Shown: one piece after another, positions 20,706 to 41,977 of the stretch
How positions within the stretch are numbered: the first letter of the stretch is position 1
How the letters are laid out: the number at the start of each line of letters is the position of its first letter
DNA from: Acidimicrobiales bacterium
GTDB taxonomy: Bacteria > Actinomycetota > Acidimicrobiia > Acidimicrobiales > SZUA-35
Assembly: GCA_020628065.1 (NCBI GenBank)
Contig: JAHDFR010000010.1
Location: forward strand, 1 to 53,186
DNA length: 53,186 nt
Direction: 5' to 3'
Notes under the pieces: generated by a model
The model's database searches: none
What the model saw: only the letters and a program-made list of their open reading frames with translations
Told to the model about the DNA's origin: nothing
Program-made: the position numbers and the translations under genes

Positions 20706-21932
20706 GTGAACGACGCCGCACCGACACGCCACGGACCCGCAGCTCGTGGAACGAAAGGCCGGATCGTGGTTGCCGGCATTCTGTTTTTCAACCCCGTCGG
20801 GGGCGTCGTCTATCAAGCTTTGCACTATCTGCTCGGGCTGAGACAGCTCGGGTACGACGTGTACTACGTGGAGGACACCAGTTGGTGGTCGCTCGACCCG
20901 AAAGCCGGGGACTTCTCCCCTGATCCGACGGCCAGCATCGAGCTGGTTCGCCCGATTCTTGACAAGTACGGGTTTGGTGACCGCTGGGCCTACCGGCGGA
21001 CCAACGCCCAGGACGAGCCGCGGCGTTGTTGGGGAATGACCGATCAAGCTGTTTTGGATCTCTACCGCTCATGTGATGCCTGGCTGAACGTCACCGGGTC
21101 GCAGACGGTTTGGGACGACGTGGCCTTGTGCCGCAAGCGGATACTGGTTGAAACCGACCCGATCTCGGCTCAGATCGATGTAGCCAACGGCCGACAGCAG
21201 ACTATCGATCATCTCGACGCCCATCATCTGCACTTCACCTTCGGCGAAACGATGACTCCCGCAACGTGCCCGGTCCCTTTGGGCCCATACCGTTGGATGC
21301 CGACCAGGCAACCGGTTGCCATGGATCTGTGGTCGGACCTGGCCGGACCCACTGCTGCACCTTCTCACAACCGTTTCACCTCAATCACCAGCTGGCACGA
21401 TGACAACAAGGACCGGGTCTACGACGGCGTGTCGTACCGGTGGACCAAGGACGCCGAGTTCCTCAATGTCATCGACCTTCCGGCTCGACACCCCGGACGG
21501 TTTGAGCTGGCGGTTACCGGCCGGGTCGACGGCGACGTTCCCGCCCTGAGAGCCGCCGGGTGGAAGCTGGGTGATGCCTTGGCCCTCTCGGCCGAGTGCG
21601 CTGACTACCAACGATTCATCGGTGACAGTTACGGGGAGTTCACCGTGGCTCGGCAACAGTACACGCTGCCCCGAACCGGCTGGTTCAGCGACCGTAGCGC
21701 CACCTACCTGGCCGCAGGCCGACCGGTCATCACCCAGCAGACCGGCTTCTCCGATGTGATTCCCAGTGGATCAGGGCTGTACGCCTGGGAATCGGTTGAC
21801 GACATCTCGGCCGCTGTCGAGGCCATCGACGCCGACCCTCGGAAGGCTCGCGCTGACGCCCTGGACATCGCCCACAGCTACTTCGCCACCGATGTGGTCC
21901 TCACATCACTGATGGATCGGGCAGGCCTGTGA
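20706..21932 (+). CDS. Glycosyltransferase-like protein, paralogue 2
   Basis: 408 residues, related to paralogues 1 and 3. N-terminal NPVGGVVYQALHYLLGLRQLGYDVYYVED and C-terminal YGEFTVARQQYTLPRTGWFSDRSATYLAAGRPVITQQTGF align with them; the C-terminal block looks like the nucleotide-sugar half of a GT-B enzyme. GTG 20706 has GGAGGGAG 7 bases upstream, a strong ribosome site. The stop overlaps the start of the deacetylase gene (GTGA), so it heads a tightly coupled run of genes up to the FHA-ABC gene. No signal peptide or membrane helix is visible, placing it in the cytoplasm. Substrate unknown. Confidence 0.7.
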   Translation: MNDAAPTRHGPAARGTKGRIVVAGILFFNPVGGVVYQALHYLLGLRQLGYDVYYVEDTSWWSLDPKAGDFSPDPTASIELVRPILDKYGFGDRWAYRRTNAQDEPRRCWGMTDQAVLDLYRSCDAWLNVTGSQTVWDDVALCRKRILVETDPISAQIDVANGRQQTIDHLDAHHLHFTFGETMTPATCPVPLGPYRWMPTRQPVAMDLWSDLAGPTAAPSHNRFTSITSWHDDNKDRVYDGVSYRWTKDAEFLNVIDLPARHPGRFELAVTGRVDGDVPALRAAGWKLGDALALSAECADYQRFIGDSYGEFTVARQQYTLPRTGWFSDRSATYLAAGRPVITQQTGFSDVIPSGSGLYAWESVDDISAAVEAIDADPRKARADALDIAHSYFATDVVLTSLMDRAGL

Positions 21933-22687
21933 TCGCCGACCCACAACCCGAAACACTCACCAGTAGATACCTGATTGTCAATGCCGACGACTTCGGCGCA
22001 GGCCACGGCGTGAACGAAGGGATTATCGCCGTTCATCGGGCGGGTGTTCTCACCAGCGCCAGCTTGATGGTCACCCAGCCAGCCGCCGAAGCGGCAGCGG
22101 CGTTGGCCACCGAATACCCGGAATTGTCGGTTGGGCTGCACACCGATCTGACCGGTGAGGGCGGCCCTCCCCGCATTGACATAGACGATCCTTCCGCCGC
22201 CGAGTTCGAGCTGCGCACACAGCTCGAACGCTTCGCCGATCTCGTCGGACAGCCGCCAAGCCATCTGGACGCCCACCACAATCTGCATCGCCACCCGCCG
22301 CTCACCCCGGTGTTTGTCACGGTGTCGGCCGAGATGGGCATACCGCTTCGGGAGAACTGCCCGGTTCGTTACTTCCCCGACTTCTACGCTCAATGGGACG
22401 ACCAGACCCACCCGGAGCAGGTGACCCCGGCCAATCTTCGGTCGATGTTGCTGGCCGACGTCAAGCCTGGCATCACCGAACTGTCATGTCACCCCGGCTA
22501 CTACGACGAGGCCTTTGACTCGGTCTATCACCTCGAACGGCAGCTGGAGTTGGCAACTCTCCTCGATCCCGACCTTCCGTCTTTTCTCGCTGCCAACGAC
22601 ATCCAGTTGATCAACTACCACCAGGCCAGCGCCCTCTTGGCCGGACCCGGTTGGCCCGCCGACCTTGGGAAGACCACCGCACCGTGA
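21929..22687 (+). CDS. YdjC/ChbG-family carbohydrate deacetylase
   Basis: 252 residues. VNADDFGAGHGVNEGI (residues 18-33) carries the metal-binding Asp pair of the YdjC/ChbG fold; SVGLHTDLTGEGG and SHLDAHHNLHRHP supply the histidines, and ELSCHPGYYDE closes the active site. Family members deacetylate N-acetylated di- or oligosaccharides such as chitobiose; related hopanoid-linked enzymes act on N-acetylglucosamine lipids. Here it lies among glycosyltransferases, so deacetylation of an N-acetyl sugar in the exported glycan is likely but inferred. The start GTG 21929 overlaps the previous stop by 4 bases, and its stop overlaps the next GTG at 22684. Confidence 0.87.
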   Translation: MIADPQPETLTSRYLIVNADDFGAGHGVNEGIIAVHRAGVLTSASLMVTQPAAEAAAALATEYPELSVGLHTDLTGEGGPPRIDIDDPSAAEFELRTQLERFADLVGQPPSHLDAHHNLHRHPPLTPVFVTVSAEMGIPLRENCPVRYFPDFYAQWDDQTHPEQVTPANLRSMLLADVKPGITELSCHPGYYDEAFDSVYHLERQLELATLLDPDLPSFLAANDIQLINYHQASALLAGPGWPADLGKTTAP

Positions 22688-23919
22688 CCACTGTTGCGTT
22701 GTCGCCGACCGGCACGGCTTCGTTTCCTGATGGGGGCGGCCACTGGTGGGTGTACCTTCAGTACGCGCTGGGACTTCGTGACCTTGGTCTGAACGTGCTG
22801 TGGGTTGAACGATGCACCGAGACCTCCGAGCTCAACCGGGCGAGACAGATCCTGGCATCGTTCGGCTTTGCCCACGACGAGGTGTTGCTGTACGAAATAG
22901 GCGACGACGGTCAAGAGACCGGTGAAGGCGATCTCGTCTGGCTGACGACCGACACCAAGACCGCCGAGTCGGCTCTGGGTCGATGCGAAGCACTTCTCAA
23001 TTTCGACTATGACGCCCCTCCGTCAGTGGTCGACCTGCCCGGACAATCGGCCCTCATCGATATCGACCCCGGTTTAATGCAGACCTGGTGGGCCAAAGGA
23101 GAAATCTCACCGCCGGCCCACGACTTCTGGTTCACGACCGGCGAAACCGTCGGAACCGAGACGGCTCTGTTTCCGTCATGTGGTGTCGAGTGGATCCAAA
23201 TCAGGCCATGTGTTCACCTGCCCTCCTGGCCGGTGATTGACGGTCCTGGGAACGGCCGGTTCACCACCGTCACCAGTTGGTGGGGGCGGGAATGGCTACG
23301 TCTCGGCGACGGAACCGTACTGGACAACAACAAGCGGGCCGCTTTCCTGGCCTACCTCGATCTACCCACCAAGACCAGGGCCGAGCTTGAACTCGCCGCC
23401 TACTTCGGCCGGTCAGACGACGTCAACAACTCCTTCGGGTCGGACCCAACAAACTGGGAGATGGTCTCGCCTGAGACGGTCGGCGACGACCGAGATGACG
23501 TCGCGGCGTTGCTGGCCAACGGCTGGCAGGTGGCCCGAAGCTCCGTCGTGGCTGCGGACCCGGGGCACTACCGACGCTATATACAGGCTTCGTCCGGCGA
23601 GTTCAGTTGTGTCAAGCCGTCATGTCGACTGTTCTCCAACGCCTGGGTCAGCGACCGAACATTGTGCTACCTGGCCAGCGGACGGCCGGTCGTAACTGAA
23701 GACACCGGGCCGAGCGCCGTGCTCGACAGCGGGGCCGGTCTTATCCGTTTTGATTCGTTGGATGGGGCCGCCGCCGCTCTGGACGAGGTTCAAGCCGACT
23801 ACGGCCTCCATAGTCAGGCCGCCCGCCAATTGGCCGAGGACCACTTCTCAGCTGCGGCCAACGTCGGCCGGATCATCGACGTAATGACCGCCGCTGGGCA
23901 ATACAGCGCCGGTCAATGA
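22684..23919 (+). CDS. Glycosyltransferase-like protein, paralogue 3
   Basis: 411 residues. N-terminal GGGHWWVYLQYALGLRDLGLNVLWVE and C-terminal SSGEFSCVKPSCRLFSNAWVSDRTLCYLASGRPVV mark it as the third member of the island's GT-B-like group, the most divergent in the middle. The frame is open from 22651, but GTG 22684 overlaps the deacetylase stop (GTGA) and begins VTTVALSPTG, the natural start. Its TGA overlaps the first ABC exporter's ATG. Three related enzymes in a row suggest successive additions of similar sugars; this is inference from paralogy and coupling. Confidence 0.7.
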   Translation: MTTVALSPTGTASFPDGGGHWWVYLQYALGLRDLGLNVLWVERCTETSELNRARQILASFGFAHDEVLLYEIGDDGQETGEGDLVWLTTDTKTAESALGRCEALLNFDYDAPPSVVDLPGQSALIDIDPGLMQTWWAKGEISPPAHDFWFTTGETVGTETALFPSCGVEWIQIRPCVHLPSWPVIDGPGNGRFTTVTSWWGREWLRLGDGTVLDNNKRAAFLAYLDLPTKTRAELELAAYFGRSDDVNNSFGSDPTNWEMVSPETVGDDRDDVAALLANGWQVARSSVVAADPGHYRRYIQASSGEFSCVKPSCRLFSNAWVSDRTLCYLASGRPVVTEDTGPSAVLDSGAGLIRFDSLDGAAAALDEVQADYGLHSQAARQLAEDHFSAAANVGRIIDVMTAAGQYSAGQ

Positions 23920-25796
23920 CGACAGATACCGGCGTTCGGTCGCTCGGCCCGTACCGGGAGCTGGGCCGACGCATCATTGGGCGCTGGCCTCAACTCCTGC
24001 AGCTGGCTCTGCTGACCTTCGTCGCCGCCGGTTTGACGGCGTTACGACCGTGGCCAATGAAGCTATTGGCCGACAGCGCGCTGGGCGAAGAACCAATACC
24101 CGATTGGCTCAGATCGAGCCTGGACGTGGTCGGTCTGGCTGACGATCCCCGGTCGCTGGTACTGGTGGCGGCCCTCGGCGTGCTCTTTGTGATCCTGGCC
24201 AATGCCATCCCCGGATTGCTGCTCAGCTGGCAATGGGCGGCGACCGGCGAGTCGCTCACCCGAGATCTTTCAACCGACATGTTGGGCCGACAACTGCGGG
24301 CTCCCCTGGCCCACCAATCCGACGAGGCTGTCGGTGAGTCGATGACGAAGATCAACGGTGACTCCTACGCCATCTACACGCTCACCAATCTCACGCTGAT
24401 CGCCCCCGGACGTGAGATTCTGACCCTGGTTTCCATGGCAGCCCTGGCCTGGACGTTGTCTCCTTCGCTCACCGCTGTGGCCTTCGTGGCCATCCCTGTC
24501 CTGGTGGTTTTAGCCGAGAGCCTCGGACGACGTGTTCGAATTCGATCCGAGGCCCGGCGCGAGCTTGAGGGCCGGTTCGCCTCGATGATTCAGCAGACGT
24601 TGGCCGCCATGGCTGTTGTCCAGGCCTTCGGTCTGAGTCACCCCGGTCGGCGGTTTCGGGCACTGGCTGACGAAGGGGTGGGTCTGGCCCGCCGGGAAAC
24701 AATCACCCAGAACGCATTCGGTGCCATCAACGGGCTGGTTCTGGCCGCCAGCTCAGGCCTGGTTCTGGTGCTGGGTGGTCGGAGTGTACTCCAGGGCACG
24801 ATGACGCTCGGATCGCTCCTGGTGTTCCTCGGCTACGTGACCTCAATTCGCCAGTCGGTGATGGCGCTGCTCGGGCTTTGGCGATCGCGCCAGACGGTGG
24901 ATCCGAGTGTGCAGCGGATCGGTGAAGTGCTGTCCCTACCTTCGATCCAGTCCCATCCGATCCAGTCCCAGGTTGGTGGAGTTGGGGTTGGTGAGGTGGA
25001 GGTTGGTGGGGTTGGTGACGAGTTGCCCGGACACGTGACCGGCGGAGCCCGCATCGAATTCAACAACATCACCTTCGGCTACACCAACAACCAACCCATC
25101 CTCCAAAACCTCAACCTCACCATCGAACCCGGCGAACTCATCGGCCTCACCGGACCATCAGGCTCCGGCAAATCCACCCTCATCGGCCTCATCCCCCGCC
25201 TCTACGACCCCTGGTCCGGCACCATCACCATCAACAACCACAACATCAACACCCTCAACCCCACCACCCTCCGCAACAACATCGCCGTCGTCCTCCAAGA
25301 ACCCTTCCTCTTCCCCGTCTCCATCGCCGACAACATCGCCTTCGGCAACCCCAACGCAACCACCCAACAAATCCAACACGCCGCAGAACAAGCCGGCGTC
25401 ACCACCTTCACCAACAACCTCCCCAACAAACTCAACACCATCATCGGCGAACGCGGCACCAGCCTCTCCGGCGGAGAACGCCAACGCGTCGCCATCGCCC
25501 GAGCCCTCGTCCGAAACGCCCCAATCGTCATCCTCGACGAACCAACCAGCGCACTCGACAACAACACCGAAACCGCCGTCATGAACGCCATACAAAACCT
25601 GGCCAAAGGACGCACCACCATCCTCATCACCCACCGACCAACCACCCTCACCCACACCACCCGAACCATCAACATCACCCAACCCCACACCACACACCCA
25701 CCAACCCAACCCCCAACAACACAAACAATCGACCACCTCCTCAACACCCTCGGCACACCAAACCCACAACAACCCAACAGGACGGTGGAGCGTTGA
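23916..25796 (+). CDS. ABC exporter half-transporter A of the glycan island
   Basis: 626 residues. The membrane domain (about 20-340) is followed by a Gly/Val-rich linker built from GGTTGG-type DNA (about 350-368) and an ATPase domain: Walker A GPSGSGKST from residue 413, Q-loop LQEPFLFP, signature LSGGERQRVAIARAL, Walker B VILDEPTSALD and H-loop LITHRP. The tail is Thr/Pro/His-rich low complexity. The whole ATPase segment, DNA 25001-25774, recurs in the next gene. Its base composition (C/A-rich, almost no G) differs sharply from the membrane domain. The ATG overlaps the previous TGA. It probably forms a heterodimer with the FHA-bearing exporter next door. Confidence 0.9.
   Translation: MTTDTGVRSLGPYRELGRRIIGRWPQLLQLALLTFVAAGLTALRPWPMKLLADSALGEEPIPDWLRSSLDVVGLADDPRSLVLVAALGVLFVILANAIPGLLLSWQWAATGESLTRDLSTDMLGRQLRAPLAHQSDEAVGESMTKINGDSYAIYTLTNLTLIAPGREILTLVSMAALAWTLSPSLTAVAFVAIPVLVVLAESLGRRVRIRSEARRELEGRFASMIQQTLAAMAVVQAFGLSHPGRRFRALADEGVGLARRETITQNAFGAINGLVLAASSGLVLVLGGRSVLQGTMTLGSLLVFLGYVTSIRQSVMALLGLWRSRQTVDPSVQRIGEVLSLPSIQSHPIQSQVGGVGVGEVEVGGVGDELPGHVTGGARIEFNNITFGYTNNQPILQNLNLTIEPGELIGLTGPSGSGKSTLIGLIPRLYDPWSGTITINNHNINTLNPTTLRNNIAVVLQEPFLFPVSIADNIAFGNPNATTQQIQHAAEQAGVTTFTNNLPNKLNTIIGERGTSLSGGERQRVAIARALVRNAPIVILDEPTSALDNNTETAVMNAIQNLAKGRTTILITHRPTTLTHTTRTINITQPHTTHPPTQPPTTQTIDHLLNTLGTPNPQQPNRTVER
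25001..25774 (+). repeat. 774-bp direct repeat, copy 1 (ABC ATPase module)
   Basis: Identical, as far as I could compare by eye, to 26854-27627 (offset 1853 bp). The translations of the coding frame and of two antisense frames agree across most of it. It starts in the GGTTGG linker and ends at the AACAACC before the two genes diverge. It is in the same reading frame in both genes. Confidence 0.95.
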
Positions 25797-28069
25797 GCGA
25801 GCGGCCGACCGATGATCGTCGTTGGGTACGGACTGTTTGGCACTATGTCCGACCTGACAGCCAATCGATCTTGGCGGTCATGGCTCTACTGGTATCGACC
25901 TCACTGGTGGCGGCAGCCACCCCGTGGCCGGTCACGCTGGTTGTGGACTCGGTTCTCGGAAGCGAGCCGGTCCCGGGCATTTGGGGCTGGACGTTGTCGC
26001 TGCCGGGTGCCGAGCAACCACTCACCTACGTCGCTTGGATGGGCGTTGCCGTCGTTGTTCTGTTCATTATCCAGCAGGCACTGGCCACGGCCCGTGCCGC
26101 CATCGAGGCCACCGCCGGCAACCGGATCGTTTACCGGATCGGCGGAGCCATCTTCGACCGGATCCAGCAAGTCCCGCTGACCCATCACGTGAACTGGCCG
26201 GTCGGCGATCTGATGAATCGAATCAAGACCGATGCCACCTGTGGCCGCGACCTGGCCTTTCACATGATCACACCGGCCACCGCCGCCGTGGTCACCGTCG
26301 TGACCACCTCCGTGGTGATGGTCATCGTGGAACCGGTGTTGTGGTTGGTGGCCATCGCCTCGGCCCTTCCCAGCGCTGTCGCCGGCCCCATCGGTTCCCG
26401 TCCGTTGATGAGACTCCAGACCGAGAACGCCGAGGTGGACGCAGAGCGCCAGGCCGCAGTTGAGCAAGCCCTTACCGCCCTACCAAGCGTCCAGGTGTTG
26501 GGGGCAGAACCGATTGTCGAGCGCCGCTATCACCAGCTGGCCGACCGTCTGGTCGGGGTACGAAAAAGGCTGGCGCTCACCGAGGGGGTGTTCGGGCTGG
26601 TAGTCGACATTCTCTTCGGCGCCAGTTCGGCCACGTTCCTGCTGGTCGGCGGCTGGATGGTGCTGGACGGTCGGCTGACGCTGGGACGACTGCTGGTGTT
26701 CATTGCTTACGTCGACACCCTTCACGCCCCCCTGCAAACGCTACTTCACCTGACGACGACCTATGCCGGAGCGTCAGCCCAGGCGAGACGAGTGCTGGAT
26801 GTGCTGGATGTGGAACCCCTGTCCGCTGCCGTTCCGGAACTCGGTGGGGTTGGGGTTGGTGGGGTTGGTGACGAGTTGCCCGGACACGTGACCGGCGGAG
26901 CCCGCATCGAATTCAACAACATCACCTTCGGCTACACCAACAACCAACCCATCCTCCAAAACCTCAACCTCACCATCGAACCCGGCGAACTCATCGGCCT
27001 CACCGGACCATCAGGCTCCGGCAAATCCACCCTCATCGGCCTCATCCCCCGCCTCTACGACCCCTGGTCCGGCACCATCACCATCAACAACCACAACATC
27101 AACACCCTCAACCCCACCACCCTCCGCAACAACATCGCCGTCGTCCTCCAAGAACCCTTCCTCTTCCCCGTCTCCATCGCCGACAACATCGCCTTCGGCA
27201 ACCCCAACGCAACCACCCAACAAATCCAACACGCCGCAGAACAAGCCGGCGTCACCACCTTCACCAACAACCTCCCCAACAAACTCAACACCATCATCGG
27301 CGAACGCGGCACCAGCCTCTCCGGCGGAGAACGCCAACGCGTCGCCATCGCCCGAGCCCTCGTCCGAAACGCCCCAATCGTCATCCTCGACGAACCAACC
27401 AGCGCACTCGACAACAACACCGAAACCGCCGTCATGAACGCCATACAAAACCTGGCCAAAGGACGCACCACCATCCTCATCACCCACCGACCAACCACCC
27501 TCACCCACACCACCCGAACCATCAACATCACCCAACCCCACACCACACACCCACCAACCCAACCCCCAACAACACAAACAATCGACCACCTCCTCAACAC
27601 CCTCGGCACACCAAACCCACAACAACCACAATCAGAGTCACTGCCGGCAGCAGCGATGGGGTGGGCCAGCGCCACCAGACGCTTCGTGGTCGACAGGAGT
27701 GACATCGAGGTGCGAGTCGACCAGCAGTCGTACTATTTCACCACCGACGACTCCCCGGTTTCCATCGGCCGCATGATTGACAATGATGTCCGGATCAAAG
27801 GCGGTGACATCTCGCGACGCCACCTTGAGTTGACGTGGTCCAACCTCGGCTGGGCCACCCACGACGTGTCCCGCAACGGCTCCTACGATGGCTTGGGGAG
27901 ACCGATGGCCCGCACCACTCTCCTAACCGGTCAGCTCCGTATGCACTTGGGCTCGCTGGAGGAAAACCTGGTGACCGTTCGGCTGGTTCCACCAGGAACC
28001 AAAGACCTTCTGGCATCATCAGGTCGCAGAAGGCGGGCCAAGAACGACCAGGCGTCGAGCCGGCACTAG
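25793..28069 (+). CDS. ABC exporter half-transporter B with C-terminal FHA domain
   Basis: 758 residues. The membrane domain (about 15-335) is unlike that of exporter A. The ATPase domain (Walker A from residue 405) matches exporter A residue for residue. After the Thr/Pro linker, an FHA domain covers about 640-735: SIGRMIDNDVRIK, ISRRHLEL and DVSRNGSYDG hold the Gly-Arg, Ser-Arg-x-His and Asn-Gly signatures of phosphothreonine binding. The tail is basic. FHA on an exporter is rare and suggests recruitment or gating by a Ser/Thr kinase, as in actinobacterial envelope systems; no kinase gene lies in the window. The start is TTG 25793, overlapping the previous TGA; it is supported by the operon layout. 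Confidence 0.9.
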   Translation: MSERPTDDRRWVRTVWHYVRPDSQSILAVMALLVSTSLVAAATPWPVTLVVDSVLGSEPVPGIWGWTLSLPGAEQPLTYVAWMGVAVVVLFIIQQALATARAAIEATAGNRIVYRIGGAIFDRIQQVPLTHHVNWPVGDLMNRIKTDATCGRDLAFHMITPATAAVVTVVTTSVVMVIVEPVLWLVAIASALPSAVAGPIGSRPLMRLQTENAEVDAERQAAVEQALTALPSVQVLGAEPIVERRYHQLADRLVGVRKRLALTEGVFGLVVDILFGASSATFLLVGGWMVLDGRLTLGRLLVFIAYVDTLHAPLQTLLHLTTTYAGASAQARRVLDVLDVEPLSAAVPELGGVGVGGVGDELPGHVTGGARIEFNNITFGYTNNQPILQNLNLTIEPGELIGLTGPSGSGKSTLIGLIPRLYDPWSGTITINNHNINTLNPTTLRNNIAVVLQEPFLFPVSIADNIAFGNPNATTQQIQHAAEQAGVTTFTNNLPNKLNTIIGERGTSLSGGERQRVAIARALVRNAPIVILDEPTSALDNNTETAVMNAIQNLAKGRTTILITHRPTTLTHTTRTINITQPHTTHPPTQPPTTQTIDHLLNTLGTPNPQQPQSESLPAAAMGWASATRRFVVDRSDIEVRVDQQSYYFTTDDSPVSIGRMIDNDVRIKGGDISRRHLELTWSNLGWATHDVSRNGSYDGLGRPMARTTLLTGQLRMHLGSLEENLVTVRLVPPGTKDLLASSGRRRRAKNDQASSRH
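26854..27627 (+). repeat. 774-bp direct repeat, copy 2 (ABC ATPase module)
   Basis: Second copy of the segment at 25001-25774. The flanks differ at once on both sides: the membrane domains upstream are unrelated at DNA level and the tails downstream differ. This fits gene conversion or module duplication better than duplication of a whole gene. Confidence 0.95.
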
Positions 28070-28080
28070 GAGCACCATCG

Positions 28081-29310
28081 ATGCATCCGAAACTCACGGT
28101 TCTTGTGCCGACGCTCAACCGCCGAGAACTACTCGACCGTTGCCTAGAGTCGCTGGTTGACCAAGACGCCGAAGACGACGTGATTGTCCGGGTCTTCGAC
28201 AGCGGCTCAACCGACGGCACTCCCGCCTACCTGGCCTCGCTGCAGGAACCCACCATCGAGGTGTTCTCCGGCGGGCCTGCTCGAAACCTGTTCCACAACT
28301 GGAGTCGGGCGGTCGACACCGTGACCACCCCGTACCTGGCCATCGTTGCCGACGACGACTGCTGGCGGTCCGGCTACGCACGAAAGGCCATTCAAGCGCT
28401 TGATGCCCACCCCGACGCCGCGCTGACCTTCTGCGACGTTGAACTTCAAGACGGCTCCGGCAACCGAATTGGGGCCCGAAGGACGCCCTTTCCGGCCGGC
28501 CGCTTTCCCGGGTTGGACTATCTGGAGCGGGTCGTCAACGGTGAGAACATCATCGTTGACAGCTCGGCGGCAGTGATCCGCACCGACGTCTTTCGTTCCG
28601 TAGGCGGTCTCGACGGTCCACATATGAATCACGACATCATCTTCAACTATCAGTTCCGGCTGGCCTTTGACCACCACTTTGTACGCATCCCGGAAACCAT
28701 GGTTGGGATCGGCGTGCACGACGATCAGGGCCACCTCCAGTCGGCCGGCTCCAAGGCGGCAATTGGGATGACGGCTGAACGGATGGAGGCGGCGGCCCGC
28801 CTCCTGGCATCACCTCGAGCGGCCGACGAGCAATACCGCGGATGGCTGTCGGAGCGCCTCATCGACATCGGCCGCTTGCGTAGCCAATATTCCGCCGAAG
28901 AAATTCCGGGCCTGAAGGACCCGGCCACCGAACGTCTGTCAAGAGCCAGGGAACGGGCACTGGTTCTCACCAAGGACTACGACATCTTGGTGGTGGCCGG
29001 CGACGACCTGGTCTACGACCCGGATCTGAATGAGGCGCGAACAGTACGGCCGTTCCCCGAGATTGACGGATCATACGCCGGCGTACCCGACAGCGATGAA
29101 GCTGCCATCAGCGAGCTGGCCTCAGCGATCGACGGCGGTGCAACTCACTTCGTGGTGGCCTGGCCGTCGTTCTGGTGGCTCGACTACTACCACGGTCTGC
29201 GCCATCACCTGGCAGATCATCATCTGATGGTGAACAGCAGCGACGCCGTGATCTACCGGTTGACCAACGACCCCCGGCCGCCGTCAGCAGAAGTCGCCGG
29301 CGATGGGTGA
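28081..29310 (+). CDS. GT2-family glycosyltransferase with extra C-terminal domain (first of two)
   Basis: 409 residues. The N-terminal GT-A fold has LTVLVPTLNRRELLDRCLESL, FDSGSTDG and VADDD (DxD-like). It belongs to family 2. The C-terminal ~95 residues (from about 305) contain THFVVAWPSFWWLDYYHGL and SDAVIYRLT, shared with the next gene's product and separate from the GT fold. ATG 28081 has GGAG 9 bases upstream and lies 11 bases after the FHA-ABC stop, so it is probably in the same transcript. The frame is open further upstream, but that overlaps the previous gene. Its stop overlaps the next start by 8 bases. Confidence 0.88.
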   Translation: MHPKLTVLVPTLNRRELLDRCLESLVDQDAEDDVIVRVFDSGSTDGTPAYLASLQEPTIEVFSGGPARNLFHNWSRAVDTVTTPYLAIVADDDCWRSGYARKAIQALDAHPDAALTFCDVELQDGSGNRIGARRTPFPAGRFPGLDYLERVVNGENIIVDSSAAVIRTDVFRSVGGLDGPHMNHDIIFNYQFRLAFDHHFVRIPETMVGIGVHDDQGHLQSAGSKAAIGMTAERMEAAARLLASPRAADEQYRGWLSERLIDIGRLRSQYSAEEIPGLKDPATERLSRARERALVLTKDYDILVVAGDDLVYDPDLNEARTVRPFPEIDGSYAGVPDSDEAAISELASAIDGGATHFVVAWPSFWWLDYYHGLRHHLADHHLMVNSSDAVIYRLTNDPRPPSAEVAGDG

Positions 29311-41852: not shown

Positions 41853-41912
41853 CACTAACAGTGTCACTCACAGCGTCACTCACAGTGTCACTCACAGTGT
41901 CACTCACAGCGT
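41853..41912. repeat. Five tandem 12-bp units in a divergent promoter region
   Basis: Units CACTCACAG(T/C)GT at 41853, 41865, 41877, 41889 and 41901; the first has CACTAACAGTGT. Each contains the small palindrome CACT-n-AGTG or a near version. The array lies between the racemase and thioredoxin-like genes; a -10-like TACGCT follows at 41926-41931. It could be a multi-site operator or a slippage-prone tract. Confidence 0.8.
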
Positions 41913-41977
41913 CGGACCTGGGATCTACGCTGGTGTCATACCAGGGAGTGCGGCAACAGTCCTGAAGGTGTTCAGTC

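Follow-up and report, generated by a model that had tools for sequence, protein, structure and literature searches.

Heterodimeric ABC exporters such as TM287/288, LmrCD and EfrCD are encoded by adjacent, overlapping half-transporter genes, in each of which the transmembrane domain (TMD) precedes the nucleotide-binding domain (NBD). As described in the parts of PMC4997860 on which we draw, the ATP sites are asymmetric in most heterodimeric exporters, one of the two being degenerate. Near-identical, sharp-edged blocks between otherwise different genes are known from the rhsA/rhsC cores of E. coli and, in the sections of PMC13061034 used here, from paralogous regions of M. tuberculosis. These sections report gene conversion with T>C enrichment in the paralogous regions, and suggest that repair asymmetry could reshape their composition and that NucS may act less during recombination. 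For actinobacterial NucS itself, the portion of PMC11551744 considered here describes recognition of G-G, G-T and T-T mismatches in vitro. In M. smegmatis, according to the same portion, oligonucleotides making C-C, A-A, A-C and G-A mismatches escaped correction. The repair found there was short-patch, unlike canonical recombination (PMC11551744).

Two overlapping exporter genes and their shared ATPase segment

We analysed a window of 53,186 nucleotides (contig JAHDFR010000010.1) from the genome of an Acidimicrobiales bacterium, here termed G000. Like the exporters above, it carries two adjacent half-size ABC exporter genes, on the forward strand, with reading frames that overlap by 4 bases. 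Gene 1 (23916..25796) encodes a membrane domain (PF00664) followed by an ATPase domain (PF00005). Gene 2 (25793..28069, counted from its first possible start, which overlaps the end of gene 1) encodes a membrane domain, an ATPase domain and a C-terminal FHA domain (PF00498), the last within a tail (27629..28066) that is absent from gene 1. The order of membrane and ATPase domains in both is that of ABC exporters of the MsbA/Sav1866/TM287-288 type, and the solved relatives among the best 60 chains by sequence included P-glycoprotein-type proteins, Sav1866 and BmrA, with MsbA or TM288 for one or other gene. All on the same strand lie a YdjC-like protein gene of the same gene run (21929..22687), a gene without Pfam match directly upstream (22651..23919) that overlaps gene 1 by 4 bases, and a family-2 glycosyltransferase downstream (28084..29310); the seven neighbouring genes scanned with Pfam comprised three family-2 glycosyltransferases, one YdjC-like gene and three without a match. 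The pair is predicted to export a cell-surface glycan or lipid, probably as a heterodimer with two equal and competent ATP sites.

Direct base comparison showed that 25001-25774 and 26854-27627 agree at 774 of 774 positions, with exact bounds and an offset of 1853 bases, just as an earlier note on this DNA had stated. Its further observation, that the membrane domains before and the tails after the repeat are different, was also borne out: 60-base bins outside the repeat matched at 9-23 of 60 positions, the chance level, at both ends, and the border between identical and unrelated sequence is sharp on either side. The repeat is by far the longest in the window, the runner-up measuring 68 exact bases. 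Two tandem repeats were noted elsewhere in the window, one with about 4 copies of a 23-base unit (1702-1792) and a short one with a 12-base unit (41858-41913).

Both copies match Pfam ABC_tran at about 125 bits and form the ATPase domains of exporters with separate membrane domains; in each, the Walker A, the signature, the Walker B with its glutamate and the H-loop are all present. Since both copies keep the catalytic motifs, the proteins, if they pair, would form two equal ATP sites. The asymmetry that characterizes most, not all, heterodimeric exporters in the parts of PMC4997860 used here is thus not seen in the window genes, whose ATPase domains are identical and canonical. We then compared the pair with 11 other tandem exporter pairs, eight from the same genus, chosen as two ATPase search matches 1.6-1.9 kb apart, and three from related public genomes; one locus with a single ATPase match (L129) was omitted, and two of the four matches were used at another (L122). 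The ATPase domains were 36-57% identical in all 11 pairs, as against 100% in the window. The earlier note had called a heterodimer with two identical ATPase sites unusual, and for the domains and their motifs the comparison agrees; the heterodimer itself is predicted from the sequence.

A composition island confined to the repeat

The earlier reading had missed a compositional skew that is confined to the repeat, which is therefore a composition island. Counted per 300 bases of the coding strand, A+C makes up 0.67-0.82 of the block, whereas the window averages 0.52 (s.d. 0.05). Expressed as A+C at third codon positions (AC3; GC3 denotes G+C there), the value is 0.98 in each copy versus 0.45-0.67 in 34 other ATPase stretches, and free-choice codons end in G or T in 1 of 238 cases between 25053 and 25772 and in 4 of 250 over the whole domain. 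The protein is affected as well, as 45% of the codons in the block begin with two A/C letters, compared with 17-22% in 17 control domains. GC3 is unchanged (0.78 in the block versus 0.73 and 0.76 in the membrane domains), and G+C is 0.57-0.62 in windows within the block and 0.59-0.66 around it. Cytosine deamination is disfavoured because GC3 is not lowered, and GC-biased gene conversion because neither G+C nor GC3 is raised. The latter process would likewise work through heteroduplex mismatch repair that favours some bases, but in the block it is A/C that prevails over G/T on a single strand, and G+C hardly changes. A diversity-generating retroelement was considered and dropped since the copies are identical.

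Maximum-likelihood change points placed the skewed islands at 25048..25779 in gene 1 (2-logL intervals 25024-25062 and 25777-25783) and at 26901..27631 in gene 2 (26878-26916 and 27627-27641), both on the forward strand. On the right, the skew ends at 25779 and 27631, no more than 5 bases past the ends of the repeat at 25774 and 27627. The left edges (25047 and 26900) fall 46 bases within the repeat and follow a short linker that is G/T-rich by composition (24972..25020 in copy 1, 26842..26872 in copy 2). This G/T-rich left edge contains GTTGGTGG in the window (24972-25020) and GCTGGTGG in the sister genome G009 (L007:120-145). The G009 motif equals the E. coli Chi octamer, and its occurrence there may be due to chance in G/T-rich DNA.

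Sister genomes and other skewed genes

A search of 61 genomes for the first membrane domain turned up orthologues in two of the other 11 genomes of the genus, G009 (85%) and G007 (82%), where the flanking DNA is syntenic with the window at 69-73% DNA identity. In a third sister, G005, the downstream part of the locus alone was found; orthologues of the downstream glycosyltransferase anchor the locus in G009 (63%) and G005 (49%). The window copies are 100% identical to each other and 83-89% identical at the DNA level to the ATPase pieces in G009 and G007. The expectation in the earlier note that the copies would resemble each other more than their sister counterparts thus holds within G000; in none of the sister genomes can the two copies both be read.

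Contig C25 of G009 stops inside the ATPase segment, and contig C1 starts near its end and continues into the FHA tail and the glycosyltransferase; C231 of G007 also stops inside the segment, and the G005 contig with the glycosyltransferase starts inside it. Four contig ends thus fall within the ATPase segment in three sister genomes. For G009 (about 60 contigs, 4.7 Mb, both rounded) 0.04 contig ends would be expected by chance in two such segments and 2 were seen; G007 and G005 are more fragmented, and their breaks weigh less. At the four ends the skew reached 141, 100, 125 and 112 bases inward (intervals 126-160, 55-125, 111-138 and 102-115) before the composition returned to normal. If the edge of the repeat agrees with the edge of the skew, a contig that ends one k-mer inside the repeat would show just such short skewed ends; 141 is the largest default k of MEGAHIT. 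We infer that the sister contig breaks are collapsed repeats.

No intact locus with both copies was found among the sister genomes, and the ATPase piece of G005, searched against G005, matched only itself. Of the 39 family genomes searched, G000 alone gave a match to the second membrane domain (1 of 39); for the sisters this is expected if binning missed a short piece enclosed by two repeats. Among 397 genomes of the order, the gene 2 tail was found in 8, all of the same family; nine other places fetched held FHA proteins without a match to the window ATPase or membrane domains at 1e-4. A search of genome contigs gave four distant loci, the distant matches including Acidimicrobiaceae and Microthrix records, and the viral contigs searched gave no match.

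The sister segments are skewed too: G/T ends 0 of the 46 free codons in G009 and 36 of the 40 in G005, where the polarity is reversed. In the C428 RHS gene of G000 (L049:7151-13981), AC3 is mostly 0.0-0.2 in the 5' part, climbs smoothly to 0.92-1.00 at the core end and drops abruptly to 0.44-0.56 in the tip. Two homologues in G006 (L180:2788-9447 and L181) have the opposite polarity, with AC3 of 0.00-0.22 at the core end, and a homologue in G003 is unskewed (0.38-0.64). The skewed 3' part of the C428 gene has no second copy in G000, and the RHS part searched in plasmids gave no match; in G006, a stretch 2.6 kb downstream repeats 336 bases (97%) from the end of the core and the beginning of the tip, and this repeat coincides with the skewed zone only in part. 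Within the RHS genes, GC3 is mostly 0.78-0.90 where A/C prevails but 0.46-0.76 where G/T does, so that the process would not be strictly G+C-neutral. The RHS genes support the flip of polarity, yet they do not bind the skew strictly to present-day repeats. In a single comparison with E. coli K-12, a MutS organism, the rhsA/rhsC cores were 89-100% alike with AC3 of 0.26-0.66, in contrast to the nearly pure A/C at free positions of the window block, which differs from the known cases of concerted evolution also in sitting in two adjacent ABC exporters.

In G000, we surveyed 75 unmasked loci totalling 967 kb, with 796 ORFs whose AC3 averages 0.53 (s.d. 0.10). Eight of the 796 ORFs reached AC3 of 0.85 or 0.15 in a 70-codon window, and two of these (L073) look non-coding; the others belong to the ATPase block and to C33, C301, C428 (the RHS gene), C280 (an RHS-like N-terminus) and C227 (a helicase-like gene). 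The C33 gene is surface-protein-like, and we take it to be DUF11-like. Its AC3 rises to 1.00 at an assembly gap (L203:5546-5645), the only gap among 48 to be flanked by skew on either side, where two 55-base overlaps reveal a collapsed 408-base unit. The C301 gene has an internal repeat (87%) and AC3 of 0.75-0.97 over most of its length; the C227 gene (L191:1013-5032; restriction type by eye) has AC3 mostly of 0.65-0.95, and no repeat was seen in it. Counting exact direct repeats of at least 30 bases, without scaffold overlaps and without L108 and L198 (about 92% alike, unskewed), which look like variants of one locus, all three with an offset of at least 150 in the 967-kb sample are skewed (ATPase block, C33, C301); short-period repeats are mostly unskewed, a few being skewed. 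A 117-base exact tandem duplication on C265 (L101:12761-12993) is unskewed (AC 0.47). In 400 kb of G011, three ORFs were flagged as skewed and judged to be wrong frames or chance stretches.

Probable gene conversion, a proposed role of NucS and the alternatives

Gene conversion is the best reading of the identical ATPase segments, and it probably recurs: breaks within this one segment in the contigs of three sister loci point to recurrent homogenisation. The "recent" gene conversion proposed in the earlier note is therefore supported in part, being too narrow as to its timing. An assembly error appears very improbable to us. Ten repeat clusters of exactly 55 bases, all across 100-N gaps, suggest that G000 was assembled from short reads by a de Bruijn method at k = 55. 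Near-identical copies may have been merged in the process, so that the 774-base copies are best called identical or nearly so. Such an assembly, with gaps left at repeats elsewhere in the genome and an unproven order of pieces, could have made two copies out of a single real segment or merged two clearly different ones; yet the window has no gap, each membrane domain runs in frame into the segment, the tails beyond it differ, and the sister contigs break at the same place. That an already skewed segment was copied once between the genes, without continuing exchange, would fit the exact identity, but the sister contigs also stop in the segment, and the sister segments are skewed too, once in the opposite direction; we regard this as improbable, though less so than an artefact.

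A more serious contender, although still unlikely, is that homogenisation is real and the skew has another cause, namely mRNA or protein selection, DNA damage (cytosine deamination, for example) or selection for readily recombining DNA (RecA prefers G/T-rich strands). The RHS genes that are skewed with no proven second copy, the RHS homologues that are not skewed, and the one moderately skewed repeat-free gene speak for it. Against it, the edges of the skew match those of the repeat, the unlowered GC3 disfavours deamination, and the reversal of polarity in G005 argues against protein or mRNA selection; we disfavour amino-acid or mRNA selection because species show opposite polarity at the same place in both the ATPase segment and RHS.

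We consider it reasonably probable that recurrent, strand-polarised and biased gene conversion both keeps the ATPase segments identical and skews them. Several findings weigh against this: the lack of a sister with both copies and the second membrane domain in 1 of 39 genomes; the RHS gene without a second copy, the unskewed G003 homologue, the partial overlap in G006 and the moderately skewed, repeat-free C227 gene; the GC3 values of the RHS parts, which are not G+C-neutral; and the mostly unskewed short-period repeats, G007 with no NucS match and the nearly strict polarity demanded by the model below. The suggestion in PMC13061034 of weaker NucS action in recombination and the short-patch repair of PMC11551744 also count against it. 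On the preferred reading, the overlapping exporter genes would keep their shared segment identical through recurrent conversion, a form of concerted evolution, and the coding strand would drift at its free positions towards near-pure A/C in G000 and towards G/T in a second species. If the same strand were always transferred, the mismatch endonuclease NucS would reject an arriving G or T that faces G or T in the resident strand and would spare an arriving A or C, so that A/C would win. Conversion would then be the cause of the skew and, with odds that we put below even, NucS the source of the bias.

NucS was above the cut-off in 34 of 39 family genomes, with a match in all of the 20 best ones, and lies on C276 in G000; no match was found in G007, which is 88% complete, although G007 has the skewed locus. 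MutS_V was matched in 0 of 39 family genomes, including G000, and in 11 of 14 controls with the same profile. A toy model with strict polarity and full NucS action gave AC3 of 1.00, GC3 of 0.80 and 99.5% identity, whereas AC3 was 0.48 without polarity and 0.47 without NucS; it works only with nearly strict polarity. More tentatively, and with doubt prevailing, one may generalize that in NucS-only bacteria repeated strand-polarised conversion acts as an amino/keto drive, in which G-T, G-G and T-T are rejected and A-C, A-A and C-C pass, so that homogenised repeats become near-pure A/C on one strand, strongly enough for the protein to be rewritten. In the titles and abstract beginnings of the matches listed from the open-licence literature, amino/keto skew was not described as a mark of gene conversion.

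For the transporter field, the locus offers a tandem pair in which both ATPase domains stay identical, as in none of the 11 other pairs examined. Its wider interest lies in an amino/keto skew that is confined to a homogenised block and reversed in a relative, for which we propose the cause set out above. Should the skew be a footprint of conversion, a single genome sequence would reveal the homogenised segments and the strand transferred, and past gene conversion could be recognised by its amino/keto skew from sequence alone. The mismatch range of NucS would then be tied to evolution in real genomes, and DNA repair would be seen to prevail over protein composition in a domain that keeps its catalytic motifs, with a clear prediction for other NucS-only actinobacteria.
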